32,487 nucleotides of DNA from an uncultured Eggerthellaceae bacterium (GTDB taxonomy: Bacteria > Actinomycetota > Coriobacteriia > Coriobacteriales > Eggerthellaceae). Within the stretch, counting starts at the first letter, position 1, and each line of letters starts with the position of its first letter. The translations under genes and the position numbers were made by a program. The notes beneath the pieces were generated by a model, which ran no database searches, was not told where the DNA came from, and was given only the letters and a program-made list of their open reading frames with translations. Location: positions 1 to 32,487 of the forward strand of contig CAJFUR010000097.1 of NCBI GenBank assembly GCA_904420215.1. The letters are read 5' to 3'. Below, in pieces: positions 146 through 19,951 of this stretch.

Positions 146-3100
146 TTAGCCTTCCAAGAGCTTGTCGGCCATGTCGTAAATCGCTTTGCGCAGTCCGTTG
201 CGGTACTTGATGCGCGTAAGCGCCTGCACTGCTTCGTCGGTCGCCATGGTTTTATACGCTCCTGTCGCATCTGCGACGATTTTTGTGATTCGCCCTGCAT
301 CGTCCAGGTCTTGCTGTCCAAAACGATGACCGCTGAACAGCTCGCGTATCTCGGCGCTGGTGATGAAGTCGGTTATGCCCCATGCGTTCCTGAACTCAAG
401 AAGCTCCCTGTCCACGCCTGCATTGCTGGCCGCTTGGATGATGCTTTCCCCCTCGGCCTGCGAAGTCAATTTCACTGGGAAGGTCAGCCCCGAATTCCTC
501 GGCGGGAAGATGCGGCTCACGATGGCGCTCACCGCATTGAGAATCCGCTTCGCATACCCGCGATCGTCCAGGCCGTTGGCGAACTGCTCAATCTTGCCGC
601 GCGTTTCCACAACCTTATCGGTTTCTCCCTCATGCACGGCGTTGATCAGGGTCTCGATAAGCTCCGTGAGGTAGTCGTAGTCTACTTTGACCTCTTTCAC
701 GTGCGTCATGCGCAGTTCTATTTGGTAGACGGGCACGCTCTTTTTATTCGCAATGCGTCCTTTCAGCTCATTGGACAGAACAGTAGTCAATGCGATTTCT
801 TGCTCGGGCTCCATGCCAAGCGCCCGTACAAGCTCATCGGGTCTATCGTAATCAAAGCCTATCTTTGCCCCATCCACTTCTTCTGGTTTAAACTGCTTGA
901 GCTTTGCCATCCCGGCATTGTACTCGCGAAGCAAATCCAGCATGAAGTCTTGCTGCTTTTCGGAAGGTGGCAGCTGCGTGAACCCATCGGTGAGGTCATG
1001 CAGCTTGGCAACCTTCTCCTTAACCTGCTGGAACACCTGCTCAAAATCAGGGGCAGTGATGCCCTCGTCCACGTTGAGCTGCCGACGCTCTTCATCGGTA
1101 AGGTTGGCGGAATCCTTATTGGCGTAAATTGCCAGCGCTTCATTCATAAGTCGTTCGTTCTGCGCTGGCCAGCGATAGTTCACCACGTGCCCCCAGGGTT
1201 TTTCCTGCATATCCGCGATGCGGTTGGTGCGCGAATACGCCTGGATGAGGCCGGCACCTTTGAGCGTGCGATCGACGTAGAGCGTGTTAAGCTCGGGCGC
1301 ATCGAACCCTGTCAAAAGCTGATCCACCACAATGACCAAATCAAGATACGGGCCTTCTCTGAGCGACTTGTTCAGCCGCGCCATCACATCCTGCGTGTAA
1401 CCAGAAACATCGTCCATGCCAAAGGTGGTGCCAAACTCCTCGTTGTAAGTCACGATGGCTTCATGCAGCCCGCGGTTGGTCTCCAACATGGTGTCGTTGT
1501 TGGTCGTGTTTTGGCTGAAAGTTACCGCCACCTTGAGCGTGGGCATTCCCTCGGCGCGCCGCTCCTTATTCACGCGCTGGAACTCCCGGAAATACATCAT
1601 GGCCATGGGCGTGGACGCCTTGCCGCCGCCCACATGCGTGGTGAGCAGCGCGTTATACCTGCCCTCGGCCGAACGGTTGCGCCAGTTGTCGAAGATGTCC
1701 CGCACCACTTCCCTCACATGGTCGGGATTCTCGTCATAGAAACTGGGTTCAATGGCGTCGTCCATGTCTTCCGGCGTGAGGTTGGCAATCTTGCGCTTGA
1801 TTTGCTCACGGGTCCAGTCGGGGTGCTGTTCGCGGTAGAAGCGGGGCAAATATTCTTCCTTCATGGCCTGCTCGGGGATGGTAGTCTCAAAATCCACCTG
1901 GAAGCCCAAAACGTTGCGGTCGGCTATGGCCTCGCGAATGGTGTAGGCGTGCAGCAAGGGCCCAAAGATGTCCTCGGTGCGCATGCCCGTGGTGGTTTCG
2001 TCGAACATGGGCGTGCCGGTGTAACCCAGCCATACCGCATGCTTGAAAGCATTCTGAATCTCTTTGAATGCCTCGCCTCCCGTGGATCTGTGCGCTTCAT
2101 CCACAATGAACACGATATGCTTGCCGGGATCGGTGAACGATTTGCGTTTGACAAGGCGCTCAAGTTTTTGCACCGACGTCACAATGATGTCGTTGCCCTT
2201 GGACTTGAGCTCGCGGCTTAGAAAGCCGGTATTCTGCGTCTCGCGAATGCTGCCGGTGGCGATATCCGCAGCATCCGGGTCGTATGCACGGTAGTTCTCA
2301 AGCGTCTGCTTGGTAAGCGCGATGCGGTCAACCAAGAAGACAACCTTGTCAACGCCAGGCAGACGGCTGGCAAGCCATGCGGTTTTGAAGCTGGTGATGG
2401 TTTTCCCCGAGCCGGTGGTATGCCAGATGTAGCCAAGCTTGCGCCCGTCAATCGGGCAATCGAAATCGGCATGTTTTATGGCGCCGATGGCCCTTTGCGT
2501 CGCGTAAACCTGATAGGGCCGCATGACCTTGACGCTCTGTTTGTTCGGCGTGCCATCCAGAATCATGAAGTTGGTGGCCATCTGATGCGCCATGGGAATG
2601 GAGAGCATGGAGTCGGCGAACTCCTTCCAGTTGCGCACCACCCGGTTGTCGCTTTTCCGCTGCCAATGGAACGCGAAATCCCTGTTGAAGCGCTCCGCCG
2701 TGGTGTTGGCCATGTACTTCACGTTGTTTGGCGTGATGGCAACCAAAATCTGCAAGGTTGAGAAGATGTCGCTGTACTGGTTCTCATCGATGTACTGGTG
2801 CATCTGGTTCAAAGCCTCGTCCACGTCGCGCGTGTCACGCTTCTCCTCTATCTGGATGACGGGCAGGCCGTTAATGAGCAGCGTGGTATCGAAGATTCTC
2901 TCTTGCTTCCCTGGAATCTTCGGCGGGCGCGTTACCTGGTTCACAACCTGATACACTGTATCGCCCGCGCCAATCTGCTTCTGGTCGAACACGGTCAAAA
3001 ACGCATGGCGACCATCGTCCAAATCGATTTCAATCTGCGAAATCCCATTGAGGCCATAAAGGAACTGCCCCGCCTGATACGGCGTCTGCAGATCCGAAAT

Positions 3101-3361
3101 GATCTTTTTCACCTGGTTGAACTCGACGACGCTCAAAGGGTGGTCGAGCGTGGCCTGATTGTGCTGTTCCAAGATGCGCTTGAAGTTGTCCCACAGTTGT
3201 TCGGTGGTTTTGATGCCGGGCTCGTATTTCCAGAGCTTCGTTTTCACCACATAATCCACCGCCGGCTCGCCCACCGCGCCCCAGCCGGTATCAGTTGGCT
3301 GGGTGATGGCGCCGTTGCACAGGTATTGGATAAGCTCGGACTCAAATTGCAGCTCGTTCAT
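146..3361 (-). CDS. hsdR: Type I restriction enzyme R subunit (HsdR), ATP-dependent translocase and nuclease
   Basis: This is the motor and nuclease subunit of a type I restriction system, which translocates and cuts unmodified DNA. The 1071-residue length is normal for HsdR. The N-terminal PD-(D/E)xK nuclease is visible: Asp158, the E172-E-K174 pair in VIQIEEK, and the QxxxY motif at 186-190. The Walker A motif TTGSGKT lies around residue 320 (Lys320). A DEAH box (VDEAHRS) and later helicase motifs (LLTGFDAPELNTLYVD; QAYSRTNR) follow. The start ATG overlaps the stop of the upstream HsdS-like gene as ATGA. All key residues are present, so it looks functional. GC content is visibly lower than in the second half of the window, which fits an acquired defence cluster. 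Confidence 0.97.
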   Translation of the reverse strand: MNELQFESELIQYLCNGAITQPTDTGWGAVGEPAVDYVVKTKLWKYEPGIKTTEQLWDNFKRILEQHNQATLDHPLSVVEFNQVKKIISDLQTPYQAGQFLYGLNGISQIEIDLDDGRHAFLTVFDQKQIGAGDTVYQVVNQVTRPPKIPGKQERIFDTTLLINGLPVIQIEEKRDTRDVDEALNQMHQYIDENQYSDIFSTLQILVAITPNNVKYMANTTAERFNRDFAFHWQRKSDNRVVRNWKEFADSMLSIPMAHQMATNFMILDGTPNKQSVKVMRPYQVYATQRAIGAIKHADFDCPIDGRKLGYIWHTTGSGKTITSFKTAWLASRLPGVDKVVFLVDRIALTKQTLENYRAYDPDAADIATGSIRETQNTGFLSRELKSKGNDIIVTSVQKLERLVKRKSFTDPGKHIVFIVDEAHRSTGGEAFKEIQNAFKHAVWLGYTGTPMFDETTTGMRTEDIFGPLLHAYTIREAIADRNVLGFQVDFETTIPEQAMKEEYLPRFYREQHPDWTREQIKRKIANLTPEDMDDAIEPSFYDENPDHVREVVRDIFDNWRNRSAEGRYNALLTTHVGGGKASTPMAMMYFREFQRVNKERRAEGMPTLKVAVTFSQNTTNNDTMLETNRGLHEAIVTYNEEFGTTFGMDDVSGYTQDVMARLNKSLREGPYLDLVIVVDQLLTGFDAPELNTLYVDRTLKGAGLIQAYSRTNRIADMQEKPWGHVVNYRWPAQNERLMNEALAIYANKDSANLTDEERRQLNVDEGITAPDFEQVFQQVKEKVAKLHDLTDGFTQLPPSEKQQDFMLDLLREYNAGMAKLKQFKPEEVDGAKIGFDYDRPDELVRALGMEPEQEIALTTVLSNELKGRIANKKSVPVYQIELRMTHVKEVKVDYDYLTELIETLINAVHEGETDKVVETRGKIEQFANGLDDRGYAKRILNAVSAIVSRIFPPRNSGLTFPVKLTSQAEGESIIQAASNAGVDRELLEFRNAWGITDFITSAEIRELFSGHRFGQQDLDDAGRITKIVADATGAYKTMATDEAVQALTRIKYRNGLRKAIYDMADKLLEG

Positions 3362-4663: not shown

Positions 4664-5656
4664 CTACGCCGGCCAGTAAATCCTCACGAGCGGCAGTATC
4701 GCCCTCATGTCGGGGTCGGCGTTGTCGTAGTTGTCCACTATGAGGCGCACAAGCTGGTCGAGATCGAGAAGCTTTACGGGCATGATGGCGCGGTCGGCTT
4801 CGTAGGCCGCTTCCTTGGTGAAGCCGCCGGTGCTCACATACAGACCGCTGTCGGTGTTGCGCAGGCCACCGATGAAAGAACGCAGCGCAGGCGCGCCCAT
4901 GGGGCCTTTGCGGTGCTTGACTTCCACCACGATGCGCGGCGACTCGAGCCCCAAACCGTCGGGCGACGCTATGATGTCGCGCCCACCATCGGCGGCCTTG
5001 CCCGTCATGGACGTTTTGTATCCCATGCAGCGCAGCAGCCCCGCAACAAGATGCTCCATGTCATCCCAGCTCAATTGAATGACGCGGTCTTTGATGCGCT
5101 CGATGCCGTCCTCGGCGGTCGCCTCGCGGACGTCGGAAGAACTTTCTTCGTCCGCGTCTTCTCCACCAACGGCGGCAACGCCTTTCGCTGCATCTTCCAA
5201 CTCGCGCAGCGTTTCGTCGGAAACGGCGAACAGGGTGGAAATGCTGCCGAGGGAGTGCTTGGCGCGCGCAGACAGCGCATCGCGGGAGGCCGTCGCCTTC
5301 CAAGAAACCGTCCGATGGTACGAACCGTCATCGCCGTCCGCATCGGAAGGAGGGACGAACGCGCAGGGGCCGGTGACTTCCGCAAGATGGTACAGACGTG
5401 TTGCCGGATTGTACACAACCACCGTGGAACCTTCGCCGATTTCGTGTGCGAAGCGCCAGATCATCCCCGCATTCGCAGCCACAACTTGGCGGGACGCGCT
5501 GGGAAAATGCTTTTTGTACAGGGCTTTCGTCTGGCCCTTGTCGAGCGACGCGATATCCGCAGCGCCCAAGTTCCAGTAGATGGCGATGTATCCTTTGCTT
5601 ATCCACTCCGCAGCCCTGACACCACCTTTGCCGGCGCGAACGATCCAAGCAGTCAT
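4664..5656 (-). CDS. Mrr-type restriction endonuclease with N-terminal reader-like domain
   Basis: This 330-residue protein probably cleaves foreign, possibly modified, DNA (type IV-like). The C-terminal half shows the Mrr_cat fold: an acidic helix start (MEHLVAGLLRCMGY, about 200-213), then AADGGRDI with Asp227, then VVEVKH with Glu245 and Lys247, the D...ExK nuclease core. The N-terminal 150 residues begin WIVRAGKGG and contain GEGSTVVVYNP and a typical SLGSI stretch. I recognise this domain from many Mrr-like endonucleases and suspect a PUA/EVE-like fold, but cannot prove it. The linker (about 155-185) is acidic. AAGGGGGC before the ATG is a good ribosome site. It lies first in an operon with the RadC-like gene. 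Confidence 0.85.
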   Translation of the reverse strand: MTAWIVRAGKGGVRAAEWISKGYIAIYWNLGAADIASLDKGQTKALYKKHFPSASRQVVAANAGMIWRFAHEIGEGSTVVVYNPATRLYHLAEVTGPCAFVPPSDADGDDGSYHRTVSWKATASRDALSARAKHSLGSISTLFAVSDETLRELEDAAKGVAAVGGEDADEESSSDVREATAEDGIERIKDRVIQLSWDDMEHLVAGLLRCMGYKTSMTGKAADGGRDIIASPDGLGLESPRIVVEVKHRKGPMGAPALRSFIGGLRNTDSGLYVSTGGFTKEAAYEADRAIMPVKLLDLDQLVRLIVDNYDNADPDMRAILPLVRIYWPA

Positions 5657-6697: not shown

Positions 6698-8161
6698 CTA
6701 GCGCAAGCCGCAGGCGTCTTTCAACATGCCCATCTTCATGGCATGGTAGGCGCGGCTCATGAGCAGGGGATGGTTTTGCGGGTTTTCGAAACGCTGCTCC
6801 TCGGGTGCAACTTCCTCCGCCAGCTGCCGCATCAGATAGCCGCGAACGTCCTCCAAAGCCGGCGAAGGATCCACGCGGCGGCCCTGCTCCATGACGGTCC
6901 TTTGAAGTTCGCGGACGGCACAGCCTGCAAGCGACACGCGCTCCCACGGCTTGCGCGGATCCACGCAAGAGAAACGCGCGCCTTCCCTGTCGGGCCGTTC
7001 GTCTGCCAAAGTCAGGAGATCGGCCACGGCACGCCCGCGCGCGTCGTTCACGCGCCACACGCGCTTGCGCCCCGGATTGGTTATCTTGTCGAACGTCTCG
7101 GACACCTTGATCTTCGGGCGGCATGCCGCGTCCTCGTTCACGGCCACCAGCTTGTACACCGCGCCGAACACCGGGTTGCTCTTTGCAGTGATCAGCCTTT
7201 CCCCCACGCCGAAGGCGTCGATGCAGCCGCCTTGCTCCACAATGGAGCGAATGGTGAATTCGTCCAAGCTGTTCGAGGCGACGATCCTGCAATCCTCCAG
7301 CCCCGCCGCATCCAACAGGACGCGCGTCTCTTTCGATAGGCGCGCCAGATCGCCCGAGTCAATCCGCACGCCGGCAAGGCGTGCCCCGCGCGGCTCCAGA
7401 ACCTTCTTCGCCACGCGAATGGCGTTCGGCACGCCCGACTCCAGCACGTCGTAGGTGTCCACCAGAAGCACGGCGTTGTCCGGATACAGTTCGGCGAAGC
7501 GTCTGAATGCAAGGTATTCGCTCTCGAAGCACATGACCCAGCTGTGAGCCATGGTTCCACCGACGGGCAAGCCGAACGTCTGCCCCGCCAGCACCGTCGC
7601 CGTGCCCTCCACGCCGCCGATATAGGCGGCGCGCGCACCGTACACCGCCGCGTCTACATTGTGGGCCCGCCGCGCCCCGAAATCGGACACGGCACGTCCC
7701 GCCGCGGCTCGCACGATGCGCTGCGCTTTCGTTGCCACCAGCGACTGATGGTTCACTTGGGCGAGTATCGCCGTTTCCGCAAGCTGCGCATCTATAAGTG
7801 GCGCATGAACGCTCAGAATGGGTTCGTTAGGGTAGACGACCGTTCCCTCGGGCATCGCCCGCACGCAGCCCCGAAACTCGAATGTTCCAAGCCACGCCAG
7901 AAACCGCTCGTCGAACAACCCCAGCGAACGCAGGTAGGCAACGTCCCGCTCGTCGAAGTGCATGCCCTCCAGGAAGTCGAGCACCTGTTCCAGCCCCGCA
8001 AACACGGAAAACGCCGCCCCATCGGGATTCTTGCGGAAAAACACGTCGAACGTGGCCCAATCGTCCTGCCGGCCGTCGGCGAAATACCCGTTCGCCATGG
8101 TCATCTGATACAGATCGGTCACCATCGACAGGTTGCGCGCGTCGAACTGCGTCACCGCCAT
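6698..8161 (-). CDS. pncB: Nicotinate phosphoribosyltransferase
   Basis: The enzyme converts nicotinate and PRPP to nicotinate mononucleotide (NaMN), the entry step of the Preiss-Handler NAD salvage route in the cytoplasm. The 487-residue length and the motifs fit the longer bacterial PncB class: SMVTDLYQMTMANGYF at the start, AQLAETAILAQVNHQS, SDFGARRAHNVDAAVYGARAA and GLPVGGTMAHSWV in the middle, and GVRIDSGDLARLSKE in the phosphoribosyl-binding region. The start ATG overlaps the end of the HD-nicotinamidase gene by 10 bases, so it is translated from the same message. It is the last gene of the sirtuin/NAD operon and converges on the decayed DUF2798 chimera with only 11 bases between; no clear terminator is seen there. 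Confidence 0.96.
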   Translation of the reverse strand: MAVTQFDARNLSMVTDLYQMTMANGYFADGRQDDWATFDVFFRKNPDGAAFSVFAGLEQVLDFLEGMHFDERDVAYLRSLGLFDERFLAWLGTFEFRGCVRAMPEGTVVYPNEPILSVHAPLIDAQLAETAILAQVNHQSLVATKAQRIVRAAAGRAVSDFGARRAHNVDAAVYGARAAYIGGVEGTATVLAGQTFGLPVGGTMAHSWVMCFESEYLAFRRFAELYPDNAVLLVDTYDVLESGVPNAIRVAKKVLEPRGARLAGVRIDSGDLARLSKETRVLLDAAGLEDCRIVASNSLDEFTIRSIVEQGGCIDAFGVGERLITAKSNPVFGAVYKLVAVNEDAACRPKIKVSETFDKITNPGRKRVWRVNDARGRAVADLLTLADERPDREGARFSCVDPRKPWERVSLAGCAVRELQRTVMEQGRRVDPSPALEDVRGYLMRQLAEEVAPEEQRFENPQNHPLLMSRAYHAMKMGMLKDACGLR

Positions 8162-9366
8162 CCCTCCTTCACGTCAACCTGGCAGCTACGCAGCACGTTG
8201 AGTGCGGCAACATGCCGCCCGGGCGTGGTTCCGGCGCAGCATGCCGCATCCACCGCAAGGGGCAGCTCGGGCGCAAGGGCTTTCACAAGCAACGCGTTCG
8301 ACACCACGCAGATGTCGGTGCACAGCCCCACGAACTCCACCGAGGCCACCTCGCCCGCCGCGAACCGGCACGCAAGCTCCATCGCCAGTTCCATGCTGCC
8401 GAACGTGGGCTTGCGAAACACCTTGGCGTCCCGCAGGCAGCGCACTTCGTCCAACTCGGCGGGAAACTCCCACCCGGGCGTCCCTTCGATGCAATGCAGC
8501 ACGGGGAGCTTCTCGCCCTCCTGCATTTCCAGATAATCGCCCCCGTGCGTGTCCTGCGTGAAGTACACTTCGCCGGCAAAGGCGCACGCCTTTTCCACCA
8601 ACCCGGGCAGCATCGCCTGCGCTTCGGCGGTGCCCAGAGAACCCGTCACGAAGTCGTTCTGCACGTCCACCACCACCAGCACGTTCTCCGCCGCGGTGCT
8701 TTTCCGTGCGCGGTGCTGCCGCCAGCTTTTCCGCACGTCGTCGCACAGCGCGCGGGCGGCCTCCGTGCGCAGGTAGCGCTCATCGAAGCCGGCATCGCCC
8801 AAGCGGAAGCGGTCGAGCGCGTCGGCGTCCTTGAACGCACGGTAAAGCAGCACGGCACGCTCGGGCGGCAGAGGCGCAAGCCCGTGCGCCGTTTCCGCAC
8901 TCATAGCCGCGCTTTTGGAAACCTCGTCTTCACCCAAGGCGTCGTCGCGGTCGTGGTACGCCATAATCGCGTAGCTCGTCGGGCGAAACGCCCAGCCCGC
9001 TTCTGCGGAAAGGTCGCGGTAGTACGCCGCCGCCCGTGCGCCGTGCCCCACGTCCAGCCCGTCGTCGTTGCGGCGGCTGTCGTGGAACACCGCACAGGCG
9101 CACAGCGTTTCCGCCTCGTCGGCGGACAGCCCCTCGCGCTCTGCGATGAGCAGGCACAGCAGCAGCACGCGCGCGCAATGCCGCTTCGTGTGCAGCCCGT
9201 CGTCGTCCAACCCGAACGTCACCTCGTCGTTGAGGAAGCGCGCCCAGCGCACGTACGCATCGCGCAAGCGCTCCGGCACCGCCAGCGGCGCAGGGTCGAT
9301 CGGCAACCTGGACGCCGCTCCCGTGCGCGCCGCAGCGCGGGGCGCACGCTCGTCCTGCGCGCTCAT
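8152..9366 (-). CDS. pncA: HD-domain/nicotinamidase fusion protein
   Basis: This 404-residue protein joins two enzymes. Residues about 35-200 form an HD phosphohydrolase-type domain with His63, the His95-Asp96 pair (VFHDSRR) and a late Asp182 (KDADALDRF), all expected metal ligands. Residues about 227-404 form an isochorismatase-fold nicotinamidase, which hydrolyses nicotinamide to nicotinate and ammonia. Its triad is visible: Asp234 (VVDVQNDF), Lys319 (FRKPTFGS) and Cys353 (GLCTDICVV). The metal site DTH is at 272-274. Stand-alone PncA is about 200 residues, so the HD half is an addition. The start ATG overlaps the upstream sirtuin stop as ATGA, and its end overlaps pncB. The HD substrate is unknown. 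Confidence 0.93.
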   Translation of the reverse strand: MSAQDERAPRAAARTGAASRLPIDPAPLAVPERLRDAYVRWARFLNDEVTFGLDDDGLHTKRHCARVLLLCLLIAEREGLSADEAETLCACAVFHDSRRNDDGLDVGHGARAAAYYRDLSAEAGWAFRPTSYAIMAYHDRDDALGEDEVSKSAAMSAETAHGLAPLPPERAVLLYRAFKDADALDRFRLGDAGFDERYLRTEAARALCDDVRKSWRQHRARKSTAAENVLVVVDVQNDFVTGSLGTAEAQAMLPGLVEKACAFAGEVYFTQDTHGGDYLEMQEGEKLPVLHCIEGTPGWEFPAELDEVRCLRDAKVFRKPTFGSMELAMELACRFAAGEVASVEFVGLCTDICVVSNALLVKALAPELPLAVDAACCAGTTPGRHVAALNVLRSCQVDVKEGWR

Positions 9367-14364: not shown

Positions 14365-15216
14365 GTGAAGCGGAAACTCATGGCGCTTGCCGCCGCCATG
14401 CTGGTGGCGGCGGGGCTGCTCTGCCTTGCCGGCTGCGGCGGGCAGGACGCCGGGCAGAAGGAGGGCGGGAGCGCATCCGCCAACGCCAACGCCAACGCCA
14501 ACGGCACCGGCACCCTGCGCGTCGGCGTGCGCGCCGACGTGGTGGGCTTCGGCTACTTCAACGAGCGCGCCAACAACTACTACGGCCTCGAGATCGACCT
14601 GGCCCGGGAGCTGGCCAGCCGTCTGGGCTACGCCGACGTGGAATTCGTCACGGTGGAACCGGACACGCGCAAGGACATGCTGCTTGCCGGCGAAGTGGAT
14701 TGCCTGGTGGCGTGCTATTCCATCACCGACACGCGCACGGAAAACTTCGACTTCTCGCCCGCGTACTACCACGACCGGGCGGTGATCATGGTGGAGAACA
14801 GCTCGCTCATCACGGACGTCTCCGACCTCGAGAACAAAACCGTCGGCATCATGTCGGGCTCGAACACTGGCCCGCTTCTGGCCATAAAGCTGCAAGAGCT
14901 GGGCATGATCAGCGAGATCGTCGAAAACGCCGACGAGGGCACCCAGTACGACGGCCTGTACGTCAAGCAGGTTCCCTCCTACGCAGAACTTTCGCGCGAG
15001 CTGGAAGAGGGCACGGTGGACGCCGCCGCCATGGACGGCAACATCACCCAAACCTACATCGACGAGGACCGCAGCATCCTCGACCTCAACATCGCCGACC
15101 AGGAATACGGTGTGGCCACCCAGAAGGGCTCGGCGCTCAGCCAGCCAGTGGCAGACGCCATCCAGTCGATGCTCGACGACGGCACCATCGCCGCCCTGAC
15201 GGAGAAGTGGAACTAG
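14365..15216 (+). CDS. Solute-binding lipoprotein (SBP_bac_3 type)
   Basis: The GTG at 14365 is chosen over the track start at 14284. It follows AGAGGGAGAAAAGA and begins a lipoprotein signal (KRKLMALAAAMLVAAGLLC) with the lipobox LAGC. The 283-residue product then has a short spacer and a periplasmic-binding fold of the amino-acid (family 3) type: LRVGVRADVVGFGYFNE, GLEIDLARELASRLGY, then TENFDFSPAYYHDRAVIMV and DLENKTVGIMSGS. These proteins normally bind small polar ligands for ABC uptake, but no permease or ATPase gene is nearby. The next gene, 17 bases on, encodes a sensor-like MscS protein. The binding protein may therefore feed a ligand signal to that channel; this is inference from gene order. 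Confidence 0.9.
   Translation: MKRKLMALAAAMLVAAGLLCLAGCGGQDAGQKEGGSASANANANANGTGTLRVGVRADVVGFGYFNERANNYYGLEIDLARELASRLGYADVEFVTVEPDTRKDMLLAGEVDCLVACYSITDTRTENFDFSPAYYHDRAVIMVENSSLITDVSDLENKTVGIMSGSNTGPLLAIKLQELGMISEIVENADEGTQYDGLYVKQVPSYAELSRELEEGTVDAAAMDGNITQTYIDEDRSILDLNIADQEYGVATQKGSALSQPVADAIQSMLDDGTIAALTEKWN
14479..14502 (+). repeat. Four tandem copies of GCCAAC in the lipoprotein linker
   Basis: GCCAAC is repeated four times exactly, encoding (Ala-Asn)4 between the lipobox and the folded domain. It is a likely slippage site, but each unit is in frame and would only lengthen or shorten the flexible tether. Confidence 0.8.
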
Positions 15217-15233
15217 CCATGGAGTCGCACGCT

Positions 15234-18200
15234 ATGTCACGCAACCTCAAAATCAAGGCCGCCCTTCTGGTGGCGTTCGCCATCGCAAGCACCGTGGCCA
15301 TGGGATTCGTCCTGTCGGCCCAGCAAGACGGCCTTTCGCTGGAAAGCTACCGAAGCGACATCGAACAGGAGCGGGAAGCCCTGCCCGGGCTGCTGGAGTC
15401 GGCCGCTTCGGAAACCGAGCAGAACACGTCCACGTTCGACGAGATCTACCGCTCGAAGGCCGAGACCCTCCGCTTCATGGCGCTGCACGAGACGGGCTTC
15501 GAGGTCACCGACGCCAAGATGCAGGAATACCGCGAGCTTCTCGGCGTGGACAACGTGCTGGTGGTGAACCGCGCCGGCGAGATCCTCGCCCAGGCGCAGG
15601 AAACCCCCGCCGACTTCTCCTACGAGCGCTACAACCAGCTGCGCGCGGTGATCGGCACCGATTCCGCGTCCCAGGCCATGGAGGTGACGTTCGCCGAAGC
15701 GGGTCGGACGCTGCGCTACTACGCCGCCCCCCTTCCCGGCGACGCCATGGCGGTGATCGAGCAGGATCCCGTCGAACTCGACGAACTGGTGGCGGAAACC
15801 GGGTCGCTCGCCAGCGTCCTGCGCACCATCAGCGTGGGGCAAAACGGCTACGTGGTGGCCGTGTCCGCGCGGGACTACCTCATCCAATACCATCCCGACG
15901 AGCGCCTGACCGGCACCGACGCCCTCGTCGCCGGCGTGGACGTGACCGCCCTCGAAGACGGCAACCACACATGGGTCACCCTTGACGGCGAGCGCCTGTA
16001 CTGCGGCGTCAGCAAGATCGGCGACACTTACTACCTGCTCGCCGTGCCCGAAAGCGACATGGCGCAGTCGCGCAACATCACGGTGGGCGTCATCCTGTTC
16101 GCGTTCTTCTCCGTGCTCATGACCGTCATCCTCTACGGCCTGTTCGTCATGCGCGACGAGGAGAAGCGCGGCTTCGACCCCAAGAACTACCGCTCGCTCG
16201 GCCCGCTGCGCTACAACAAGGCCGTCGGCCGCAAGGCCATCGTGCTGTCCTTCGTGGGCTTCCTGGGCGTCATGCTGGTGACGTTCTACATGCAGACGCT
16301 GTTCTCGCTCTCGGCGGAATCGGTGAGCAGCAGCCAGCGCGCCAACGACATCGCCGGAACCATCCAGCGCACGAACGAACAGGCGGACGCCCTCACGGAA
16401 CAGTACGACGAGCGCTACCTGAGCAAAGCCGAGGCGGCCGCCTACATTCTCGAGCGCGACGCGGGCGTCCAGACGAAGGAGGGGCTGCAGGAGCTTGCCG
16501 ACGTGCTGCAGGTGCAGTACTTGTACGTCTTCGACGGCGAGGGCGCGCTGCAAACGACCAATTCCTCGTACACCAACTTCGCGCTGAGCGACGACCCCGA
16601 ATCCCAGTCCTACGAGTTCCGGCAGCTGCTGCAGGGCGTCGAGCACGTGATCCAGGAGCCGCAGCCCGACGACGTGTCCGGCGAGCTGCGCCAGTACATC
16701 GGCGTCACGCTGCACGACGCCGAAGGCAACGCCGACGGGTTCGTGCAGCTGGGCATCAGGTCCGAACGCCTGACGAACCTGCTGGCCTCCGTGGAGATAG
16801 GCCGTATCCTGGACGGCGTGAAGGTGGGCGCGAACGGCTTCGCGTTCGCCGTGAACCGCAACGACAACACGTTCGCCTACTACCCGCAAGAGCAGATGGA
16901 AGGCCGCGGCGTTGCTGAATACGGCATGGCGGAAACGCAGGTGAAGGCAGGGTTCAACGACTACCTCGCCATCGACGGCACGACGTACTACGCCTCGTCG
17001 GTGGAGACGGGCGACTACTACGTCTACATCGCCCAGCCCGCCGACGAGCTCATGTCCGAGCGCGTGCCCATCACGCTCACCACGGGCATCAGCGGGCTTG
17101 TCTGCCAGATCGTCGTGTTCTTCCTGCTGACGCTCGAGCCGCGCCGCCCCCGTTCCGTGCGGGCGCGCGCAGGGGAAGCCGCCGGAGAGGACGGGGAAGA
17201 TGGGGAAGCCGCCCGCATGATCGACGTGACCATGCCCGATGGCCGCGTGAAGAAGACCGAATCGGCCGTGAGCCGCTGGCTCAGCACGTCGATGCAGTGG
17301 CACGAGAAATCCGCCGAGCAGCGCATCGGCACCGTGGTGAAAGCCATCGTCGCGGTGTTCGCCATTGCGGTGTGCCTCGCCGTGCTGTTCCAAGACCAGA
17401 TCTTCGGCAGCGATTCGGTGTTCGCCTACATCCTCGGCGGCGGCTGGGAGCGCGGCCTCAACGTGTTCGCCGTCACGGCGTGCGTCATGATCGCCTGCGT
17501 CGTGCTCACGCTCACCATGATCGTGCGCGAGCTGCTGCGGATGCTCTCGGGGGTGTTCGGCGCACGCGGCGAGACTATGTGCCGTCTGGTCAGCAGCTTC
17601 ATCAAGTACGCGTCCATCATCGGCATGCTGTACTACTGCCTGATGGTCATCGGCATCGACACCACCACCCTGCTCGCCTCGGCGGGCATCCTGTCCATCG
17701 CCGTCAGCTTCGGCGCCAAGGAACTGGTGTCCGACATCCTGAGCGGCCTGTTCATCATCTTCGAAGGCGAGTTCCGCGTGGGCGACATCATCAAGGTGGG
17801 GTCGTCCACGGGCACCGTCATGGAAATAGGCGTGCGCACCACCAAGATCAACGACGGCTCGGGCAACGTCATCGTGCTGCGCAACTCCGACGTGAGCAAC
17901 GTGGTCAACATGACCAAGGACTACTCCTTCGCCACGTGCGAAGTGGGCATCGAGTACGCCGAGTCGCTCGAGCGCGTGGAGAACATTCTGGAAACCGAGT
18001 TCCCGAACATCCGCCGCCGCCTGCCCGCCATCCAGGACGGCCCGTTCTACAAGGGCATCGTGGCGCTTGCCGACAACAGCGTGAACATCCGCATCGTGGC
18101 GAAGTGCCACGAGAGCGACCGCGGGCAGTTGGAGCGCGACCTGCGGCGCGAGATGAAGCTGATCTTCGACGAGTACGACATCAGCATCCCGTTCCCGCAA

Positions 18201-18332
18201 GTGGTGGTGAACCAGCCCAGGGAATTCCGCGAGGCGACGCTGGCCGAGCAGCTGCGCGCCGAGCAGTTCAACGCCGAGCAGAAGGAAGCAGCGAAGAACG
18301 TGGGCAACGAGGATCTTCCCCGACAACACTAG
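15234..18332 (+). CDS. Double Cache-like sensor fused to an MscS-family mechanosensitive channel
   Basis: The ATG at 15234 has GGAG nine bases upstream; one at 15219 is possible. The 1032-residue product starts with a transmembrane helix (about 8-30). Residues about 35-280 and 362-610 look like two extracytoplasmic Cache-type sensor domains (each with QNGYVVAVSARDYLIQYHPDE- or ANGFAFAVNRNDNTFAYYP-like stretches), each bounded by membrane helices (about 281-305, 335-360, 611-632). After an acidic linker come further helices and a canonical MscS pore and beta domain (ASAGILSIAVSFGAKELVSDI, then FEGEFRVGDIIKVG, about 810-860). MscS proper is about 290 residues and opens on membrane tension. The added sensors suggest ligand control. 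It is coupled to the solute-binding lipoprotein upstream. Confidence 0.9.
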   Translation: MSRNLKIKAALLVAFAIASTVAMGFVLSAQQDGLSLESYRSDIEQEREALPGLLESAASETEQNTSTFDEIYRSKAETLRFMALHETGFEVTDAKMQEYRELLGVDNVLVVNRAGEILAQAQETPADFSYERYNQLRAVIGTDSASQAMEVTFAEAGRTLRYYAAPLPGDAMAVIEQDPVELDELVAETGSLASVLRTISVGQNGYVVAVSARDYLIQYHPDERLTGTDALVAGVDVTALEDGNHTWVTLDGERLYCGVSKIGDTYYLLAVPESDMAQSRNITVGVILFAFFSVLMTVILYGLFVMRDEEKRGFDPKNYRSLGPLRYNKAVGRKAIVLSFVGFLGVMLVTFYMQTLFSLSAESVSSSQRANDIAGTIQRTNEQADALTEQYDERYLSKAEAAAYILERDAGVQTKEGLQELADVLQVQYLYVFDGEGALQTTNSSYTNFALSDDPESQSYEFRQLLQGVEHVIQEPQPDDVSGELRQYIGVTLHDAEGNADGFVQLGIRSERLTNLLASVEIGRILDGVKVGANGFAFAVNRNDNTFAYYPQEQMEGRGVAEYGMAETQVKAGFNDYLAIDGTTYYASSVETGDYYVYIAQPADELMSERVPITLTTGISGLVCQIVVFFLLTLEPRRPRSVRARAGEAAGEDGEDGEAARMIDVTMPDGRVKKTESAVSRWLSTSMQWHEKSAEQRIGTVVKAIVAVFAIAVCLAVLFQDQIFGSDSVFAYILGGGWERGLNVFAVTACVMIACVVLTLTMIVRELLRMLSGVFGARGETMCRLVSSFIKYASIIGMLYYCLMVIGIDTTTLLASAGILSIAVSFGAKELVSDILSGLFIIFEGEFRVGDIIKVGSSTGTVMEIGVRTTKINDGSGNVIVLRNSDVSNVVNMTKDYSFATCEVGIEYAESLERVENILETEFPNIRRRLPAIQDGPFYKGIVALADNSVNIRIVAKCHESDRGQLERDLRREMKLIFDEYDISIPFPQVVVNQPREFREATLAEQLRAEQFNAEQKEAAKNVGNEDLPRQH

Positions 18333-18457: not shown

Positions 18458-19912
18458 CTAGCCGGCGTCGAGCGCGCGGATGCTCCGTGACAGCGCGCCG
18501 GCGGCGAACAGGGCAACGAGCAGGATACCGCACGTCAGGAACCACGCGCGGATGCCCACGGCCTCCGCGACGAAGCCCGAGAACGCCAGCCCCACCGGGG
18601 CCGCCAGCGACGAGCCGGCCATGAAGATCCCCATCACGCGCCCGAGCATGTCCTCGGGCGCGCGCTTTTGCATGAGGGGCATGATGGGCGCGTTCAGGCA
18701 GCCCATGGCCGCAGCCGCCACGCCCATGAGCGCCGCGAACGCGGGAAAGCCCTCGCGCGGCAGCAGCCCGCAGGCGGCCAACGCAAGGCCGATGGACACC
18801 CCGCCCACCATCGCAAGCGGCACGAGCCGCTTGCCGCCGCCCCATGCGAACACGGCGGCAGACCCCACCAGAAGCCCGACGCCGAACACCGCCTCCACCA
18901 CCGAGGCCGACCACCCGTTGCCGCCAAACCACTCGTAGACCATCAGCGGCGACAGCGAGCTGGCCGGCATGAACAGCAGCATTGCCGCCATGACGAGCAG
19001 CATCAGGCTGCGCAGCCCCCGATCGCGCCATATGAACGCAGCCCCCTCGCGCATGTCGGCCCATACGCCCGCCCGCGCATCGCCGCCACGGCGCATGCAA
19101 GGGATGCGTGCGGCGGCAAGGCACGCGCAGGCCGCTGCCGCGCACAACGCGTCGAACAGCATGACCCCCGCCAACCCCCACGCGCCGTAGAGGAAAATGC
19201 CCAGCGCCGGCCCCGCTATCGAGGACAGGCTGGTGATGGACTGGTCCAGCGAGTTGATGCGCACCAGCTGCTCCTGGGGCACCAGCAGCGGCACGGCCGC
19301 CGTCAGCGCCGGCCCGTGGAAAGCCTGTGCGGCGGCGCGCACGAAAAGCAGCGCCAGCAAAAGCCACGGCTCCAGCAGGCCGCCCAGAAAAAGCAGCGCG
19401 AGCGCGAGCGAGAACAGCCCCGCAACGCCGTCCGCCACAAGCATGACGAGCTTGCGGTCGAAGCGGTCGGCCGCCACGCCGCCGAGCGGGCTGAGCAGCG
19501 CCACAGGCAGCAGGGAGGACGCCGACGCAAGCGAAAGCCACACGGCCGAGGACGTGGTTTCCGTTATGTACCAGATGGCGGCGAAACTGGCGGCGCAGGT
19601 GGCGAACACCGAAACCGCCTGACCAGCCCAAATCACCGCCACCGCCGCAAGCCACCGCTCGGGCAGCGGCTGCCCCTTCGCGTTCACCGGCCGGCCGGCG
19701 CCCGCCACCGGAGCTGGGACATCCCCCGGACTCGGTTCGCTCGTCGGCGCCGGAACATCTGCCGGCACCCCGGCTCCGACCGGCGCCGGGACGTCTGCCG
19801 GCGCCACCCCGCCTGCCGGATCCACCCTGCCTGCCGGAACCGGGGCGCCTGCCGAAGCCGAGGCGCGTCCCCGCCCTTCCCGTTTCCCACTTTCCCGTCC
19901 GTTCCCGCCCAT
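18458..19912 (-). CDS. MFS exporter with a proline/alanine-rich N-terminal tail
   Basis: The ATG at 19912 has GGGAG five bases upstream; the TTG at 19939 used by the track has no such site. The 484-residue protein is a major facilitator of the multidrug or siderophore-export type. WLAAVAVIWAGQAVSVFATC opens the first helix, and the MFS loop motif appears as GGVAADRFDRKLV. About ten further helices follow to the C-terminus. The first 80 residues are unusual: a disordered Pro/Ala/Gly stretch with DVPAP three times, predicted cytoplasmic. It is divergent from the MerR/GNAT gene, and its promoter carries a MerR-type operator, so drug- or metabolite-induced efflux is likely. The substrate is unknown. 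Confidence 0.9.
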   Translation of the reverse strand: MGGNGRESGKREGRGRASASAGAPVPAGRVDPAGGVAPADVPAPVGAGVPADVPAPTSEPSPGDVPAPVAGAGRPVNAKGQPLPERWLAAVAVIWAGQAVSVFATCAASFAAIWYITETTSSAVWLSLASASSLLPVALLSPLGGVAADRFDRKLVMLVADGVAGLFSLALALLFLGGLLEPWLLLALLFVRAAAQAFHGPALTAAVPLLVPQEQLVRINSLDQSITSLSSIAGPALGIFLYGAWGLAGVMLFDALCAAAACACLAAARIPCMRRGGDARAGVWADMREGAAFIWRDRGLRSLMLLVMAAMLLFMPASSLSPLMVYEWFGGNGWSASVVEAVFGVGLLVGSAAVFAWGGGKRLVPLAMVGGVSIGLALAACGLLPREGFPAFAALMGVAAAAMGCLNAPIMPLMQKRAPEDMLGRVMGIFMAGSSLAAPVGLAFSGFVAEAVGIRAWFLTCGILLVALFAAGALSRSIRALDAG

Positions 19913-19951
19913 GGCATCTCCCGTCTCTCGTCTTGCCAACGTTGCAAGGCA

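Follow-up and report, generated by a model that had tools for sequence, protein, structure and literature searches.

Mechanosensitive channels of bacteria are treated as tension valves, and how gating is altered by their large extra domains is of interest. Members of the MscS superfamily often carry large N-terminal additions, as does the channel protein described below, whose pore helix, beta domain and cytosolic cage are homologous to those of superfamily members (3udc; E. coli MscS, MscK and the YbiO-type 7a46). By contrast, none of these relatives that we looked up has tandem dCache domains or a known partner solute-binding protein (SBP). The sensor domain of the receptor LuxQ has a dCache-like fold. 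In LuxP-LuxQ and further receptors stimulated by SBPs, the SBP is periplasmic and docks on the extracytoplasmic sensor of a membrane receptor (PMC9602780), whereas docking in the present locus is a proposal. The receptor types listed as SBP-stimulated are chemoreceptors, sensor kinases, cyclases/phosphodiesterases and Ser/Thr kinases, with no ion channel mentioned (PMC9602780). The GlnH-GlnX-PknG system of Corynebacterium and Mycobacterium likewise has an Asp/Glu-binding lipoprotein SBP of the same family, linked genes and no ABC permease, and GlnX resembles the sensor part of our channel protein in having two extracytoplasmic domains in tandem, together with four transmembrane (TM) helices. 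However, the GlnX sensors are helical bundles and not dCache domains, the output is the kinase PknG, and no channel is fused to the sensor (PMC9769921, PMC6069109). Prokaryotic glutamate-receptor channels of the GluR0 type also combine a family-3-type amino-acid-binding fold with an ion channel, but their binding fold is built into the channel protein itself and their pore is potassium-channel-like/iGluR-like, whereas in the present pair the SBP is a lipoprotein of its own and the pore belongs to the MscS type (PMC2950845). Finally, the dCache_1 amino-acid receptors PctA, Mlp37 and Tlp3 share their fold with both of our sensors, as judged by Foldseek, although the R-x-W-Y core that they carry is absent here (PMC10104139). 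Every part of the locus is known, but the combination of SBP, dCache and MscS and its obligate linkage appear to be new; no paper on an MscS protein with a Cache domain or a solute-binding protein was found in a literature search that covered few subscription papers.

The two genes lie in the window, that is, the whole 32,487-nt stretch of DNA that was analyzed, and have the following features.

14365..15216, + strand: gene for a family-3 solute-binding lipoprotein (SBP_bac_3 match, ribosome-binding site, lipobox, pocket residues)
15217..15233, + strand: intergenic gap of 17 nt with a GGAG ribosome-binding-like sequence ahead of ATG 15234 (orthologue gaps, 8-22 nt)
15234..18332, + strand: tandem-dCache MscS channel protein, 1032 aa (open reading frame of 1032 codons plus stop)
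15315..16076, + strand: predicted dCache domain 1, about residues 28-281, between TM1 and TM2 (AF2 pLDDT 82; Foldseek)
16293..17069, + strand: predicted dCache domain 2, about residues 354-612, between TM3 and TM4 (Pfam dCache_1; whole-chain AF2/Foldseek)
17133..17333, + strand: charged cytosolic linker, residues 634-700, with conserved MPDGR..KTES.ASRWL (alignment; topology)
17334..17390, + strand: extra TM helix TM5, residues 701-719, ahead of the MscS core (topology)
17466..18209, + strand: MscS pore and cytosolic domain, residues 745-992 (3udc E 4e-37, NCBIfam, Pfam)

Hydropathy and the positive-inside rule gave eight TM helices in the channel protein; in this topology the two sensors face outward, and the pore has the orientation normal for MscS. 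Along the chain, TM1 (residues 9-27), TM2 (282-300), TM3 (335-353), TM4 (615-633) and TM5 (701-719) are followed by the three-helix MscS core and the cytosolic part; TM2 and TM3 are joined by a short basic loop. The pore-lining last TM helix, the MscS beta domain and the C-terminal cytosolic domain are all present, placing the protein in the MscS superfamily. It matched Pfam PF00924 (E 5e-15), PF21088 and PF21082 (20.8 vs 21 bits), and MscS of T. tengcongensis (3udc) aligned with it at E 4e-37. An earlier note on this DNA had read an MscS pore at the end of a 1032-residue chain, preceded by several extra helices. Both points held: the Pfam MscS match spans residues 790-985, and of the additional helices four hold the sensors while TM5 stands ahead of the core. 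In a search of the PDB, solved MscS relatives gave no match outside the C-terminal channel region.

The same note had proposed two Cache-like extracytoplasmic sensors, with structure prediction of the protein alone as a check. Domain 2 matched Pfam dCache_1 over residues 366-590 (E 4e-10; 40 bits vs a curated cut-off of 45), and this match was found in domain 2 of 39/39 aligned relatives, with a best E of 1.5e-14. Residues 1-310 of the window protein, which include domain 1, gave weak Pfam Cache matches only, and weak dCache matches were seen in domain 1 of five of six relatives. Because sequence profiles of each dCache domain alone found no sensor chain in the PDB, we turned to fold comparison, using AF2 models built from six-sequence alignments. 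Modelled alone, domain 1 reached a pLDDT of 82, and its order of helices and strands is that of a dCache domain, a fold defined by a long N-terminal helix and two PAS-like lobes. dCache sensor domains made up nearly all of the 50 best Foldseek matches to this model in the PDB, and the top ones were dCache receptors at probability 1.00. TM-scores were low, at 0.3-0.4 for domain 1 and 0.3-0.5 over all dCache matches, with a uniform family call and an unreliable lobe orientation. For the full-chain model, the best Foldseek matches were dCache receptors, followed by MscS; the sensors were good in this model and the pore was poor, owing to the shallow alignment of only six sequences. These models predict that both sensor regions fold as dCache, in agreement with the earlier proposal.

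The gene upstream encodes an SBP of 283 aa, counted from GTG 14365 to the stop at 15216, which matched SBP_bac_3 in Pfam (E 2e-26). It carries the lipobox LAGC, whose Cys is invariant in all 36 aligned orthologues. The longest frame opens at TTG 14284; GTG 14365 is the best start because it is preceded by GAGGGAG. In several orthologous SBPs (L068, L070, L073 and L074), N-terminal TRRxF-like twin-arginine signals replace the plain Sec signal, and the lipoprotein may therefore be exported folded in some lineages.

We examined how constantly the two genes occur together. In a 300-genome sample of Coriobacteriia, a full-length channel orthologue of at least 48% identity was present in 36 genomes, including the window's own, and the SBP gene lay directly upstream in 36/36 intact orthologues at a gap of 8-22 nt. 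This is the range for orthologues; the gap as computed was wrong in a few loci, where the start had been mis-chosen. An SBP search of the same sample found no SBP orthologue that was intact and lay apart from the channel: every match better than about 1e-45 was either a neighbour of the channel or a remnant, and the following group started at 39% identity. A more diverged SBP-channel pair was also present (L046). No flanking gene family exceeded 16 of the 43 loci, and nothing nearby was conserved like the pair. Damaged loci tended to have both genes damaged. Both were broken in G284 and G264, G229 retained an SBP remnant with a stop while the channel was gone, and G161 had an intact-looking SBP beside a broken channel. 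These results indicate that the SBP and the channel are a real two-gene unit. The family 3 binding lipoprotein that the earlier note had placed 17 bases upstream is confirmed, as are its lack of an ABC transporter partner nearby, among the matches listed, and the conserved SBP-Cache-MscS pairing for which the note had suggested a search.

Furthermore, the same pair was found in two genomes of another family (locus GC, 0.53 and 0.34), which we took as Bacillota because one is labelled Eubacterium sp. A 391-genome sample of their class showed just one of the two, suggesting that the SBP and channel genes were transferred together. Across 397 sampled genomes of the phylum to which the window belongs, full-length channel matches were confined to the window's own order. 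In the low-GC genome of the two (L127:3140-6290, - strand), the pair adjoins apparent type I restriction-modification genes, which suggests an acquired island. Stand-alone MscS proteins of 345-347 aa were detected in Clostridia-type genomes (L122:5350-6393, + strand; L123:334-1371, + strand; E about 1e-92); they align from the extra TM helix on, at about profile position 684, and are likely the source or a close relative of the channel half. No relative was present in viral contigs, and plasmid records gave a match to the channel part only. Rfam detected no RNA in the window, and a scan for promoters and terminators yielded nothing beyond chance expectation.

By analogy with GlnH-GlnX and LuxP-LuxQ, we infer that a ligand tunes the channel and that the SBP makes contact with the dCache domains. 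The explanation we favour, and consider reasonably probable, is that the ligand-loaded SBP docks on the tandem dCache module and tunes the gating of the MscS channel, the two proteins forming a dedicated sensor channel. The lipid-anchored SBP would catch an external amino acid, most likely aspartate/glutamate or a close analogue, and close before docking on the extracytoplasmic module. The resulting shape change would reach the MscS helices by way of the four sensor helices and the cytosolic linker, altering how strongly TM4 and the linker pull on TM5 and the pore, so that opening under membrane tension would be made easier or harder, or the pore would be opened outright. The two dCache domains of one chain may pack as an intramolecular pair, as GlnX pairs its two domains, and such packing would make the tendency of dCache domains to dimerize compatible with the seven-fold symmetry of an MscS channel. 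Evolutionary distances among the SBPs correlated with those of the sensor domains at r 0.82-0.84 and with those of the pore at 0.67, values confounded by shared descent and slow pore evolution; they are consistent, if weakly, with SBP-sensor coupling. In a bolder form, the acidic amino acid bound by the lipoprotein would directly control opening of the MscS pore through the tandem dCache domains, making this a channel gated by a separate SBP subunit and a fifth class of SBP output; we put this tentatively, at somewhat short of even confidence. The conserved SBP-dCache-MscS unit is a concrete example in which a dedicated chemical input to a channel can be tested. The pair spans Coriobacteriia, a gut-associated class, and looks like a channel tuned by an external nutrient. 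If so, SBP-driven signalling would extend to ion flow, and glutamate-receptor channels would have a counterpart, assembled from other components, in culturable gut bacteria.

dCache domains usually bind ligands themselves, and both domains of this family carry many invariant residues. The dCache domains could accordingly sense a small ligand of their own and gate the channel, with the SBP only concentrating or delivering solute or modulating a second input. Diverged tandem-dCache MscS proteins without an SBP neighbour do exist (L044:3417-6507, + strand, ~32-34% identity; L045:6687-9822, - strand, ~23%), so a tandem-dCache channel can occur without an SBP; these solo sensor channels represent either an older form or loss of the SBP. 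However, the SBP is never absent from an intact locus of the main family, and the known amino-acid motif is missing in both dCache domains. The core of that motif, dCache_1AA, is R126-x-W128-Y129 of PctA (PMC10104139), and R-x-[WF]-[FY] was absent from both domains as a family feature, with one stray RNWY in L071. Because neither domain has this core, sensing is plausibly delegated to the SBP, and direct sensing by the dCache domains seems unlikely to us.

The predicted ligand pocket of the SBP was compared with those of GlnH and PEB1a, with residues numbered from 14380 (numbering from the GTG start is +5). In GlnH, the alpha groups are contacted by Ser164, Arg169 and Asp250, and the acidic side chain by Arg147, Thr162 and Trp232 (PMC6069109). 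By spacing and by an alignment with PEB1a that is gap-free over these stretches, the first set corresponds to S114, R119 and D219 and the second to R97, C112 and Y201. R97, S114, R119, Y201 and D219 were kept in all 37 channel-linked SBPs, including the Arg, Asp and Ser anchors for the alpha-carboxylate and amine, and position 112 was Cys in 36 of the 37. By contrast, SBPs of ABC paralogues have Thr at both 112 and 114, and ~25 residues in the alignment, among them R51, E62, Y68, K98, N162, P165, R231 and Q262, are fixed in channel-linked SBPs without being so in the ABC ones. The Asp/Glu-holding residues of PEB1a and GlnH are thus kept, except for Thr to Cys at one side-chain contact. The ligand is most likely an acidic amino acid (aspartate/glutamate) or a close analogue, met by an altered side-chain contact. 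MscS relatives of the MscCG type export glutamate. A predicted acidic ligand would also suit an efflux-and-recapture unit, in which the MscS pore releases an amino acid or osmolyte and the SBP outside serves as a feedback gauge of efflux. This reading is a physiological variant of SBP-tuned gating and not a separate mechanism, and we think it improbable.

SBP_bac_3 proteins are usually importer subunits, and the amino-acid pocket of the present one is still complete. It might accordingly serve an ABC importer encoded elsewhere, the gene order being an operon convenience and the channel an ordinary decorated osmotic valve. Among the matches listed, no ABC permease lay near a channel-linked SBP in 16 genomes. 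Conversely, the nearest SBP paralogues (33-39% identity) adjoin ABC permeases, with a permease within a few hundred bases in at least 11 genomes among the matches listed; SBP orthologues thus sit with the channel and not with permeases. In the tree, ABC paralogues formed one separate branch (support 100/100), L109 and the long row L046 aside; L109 (the G198 row, 23% identity) is no true paralogue and was ignored, and the SBP alignment omitted L043, L048 and L075, which had wrong starts. Membership of a nearby importer was rejected, with no conserved flanking gene, no permease among the matches listed, and paralogues holding the permease place. Against an importer encoded elsewhere stand the obligate linkage with nothing else conserved nearby, the presence of both genes together in Bacillota, the separate paralogue beside a permease, and a second, ordinary MscS gene in the same genome. 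Such an importer is, in our judgment, decidedly improbable.

The pore helix is among the best-conserved regions of the channel family, and the gate is hydrophobic in 39/39 aligned channels (I/L/F at position 822, F/L/M at 826; E. coli L105/L109 by hand alignment), which makes it very improbable that the channel part is non-conducting and the protein a receptor with the MscS region as a mere scaffold.

Other genes were also identified in the window. The R subunit of a type I restriction enzyme (HsdR; 146-3361, - strand) lies some 11 kb from the pair, and an Mrr-type restriction endonuclease domain is encoded at 4664-5656 (- strand). At 6698-9366 (- strand), a nicotinate phosphoribosyltransferase gene stands beside a gene for an isochorismatase-type (nicotinamidase-like) protein with a long N-terminal part, a probable NAD salvage pair. 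Encoded at 18458-19939 (- strand) is an MFS transporter resembling Mef macrolide efflux proteins, far under the cut-offs (235 vs 675 bits).
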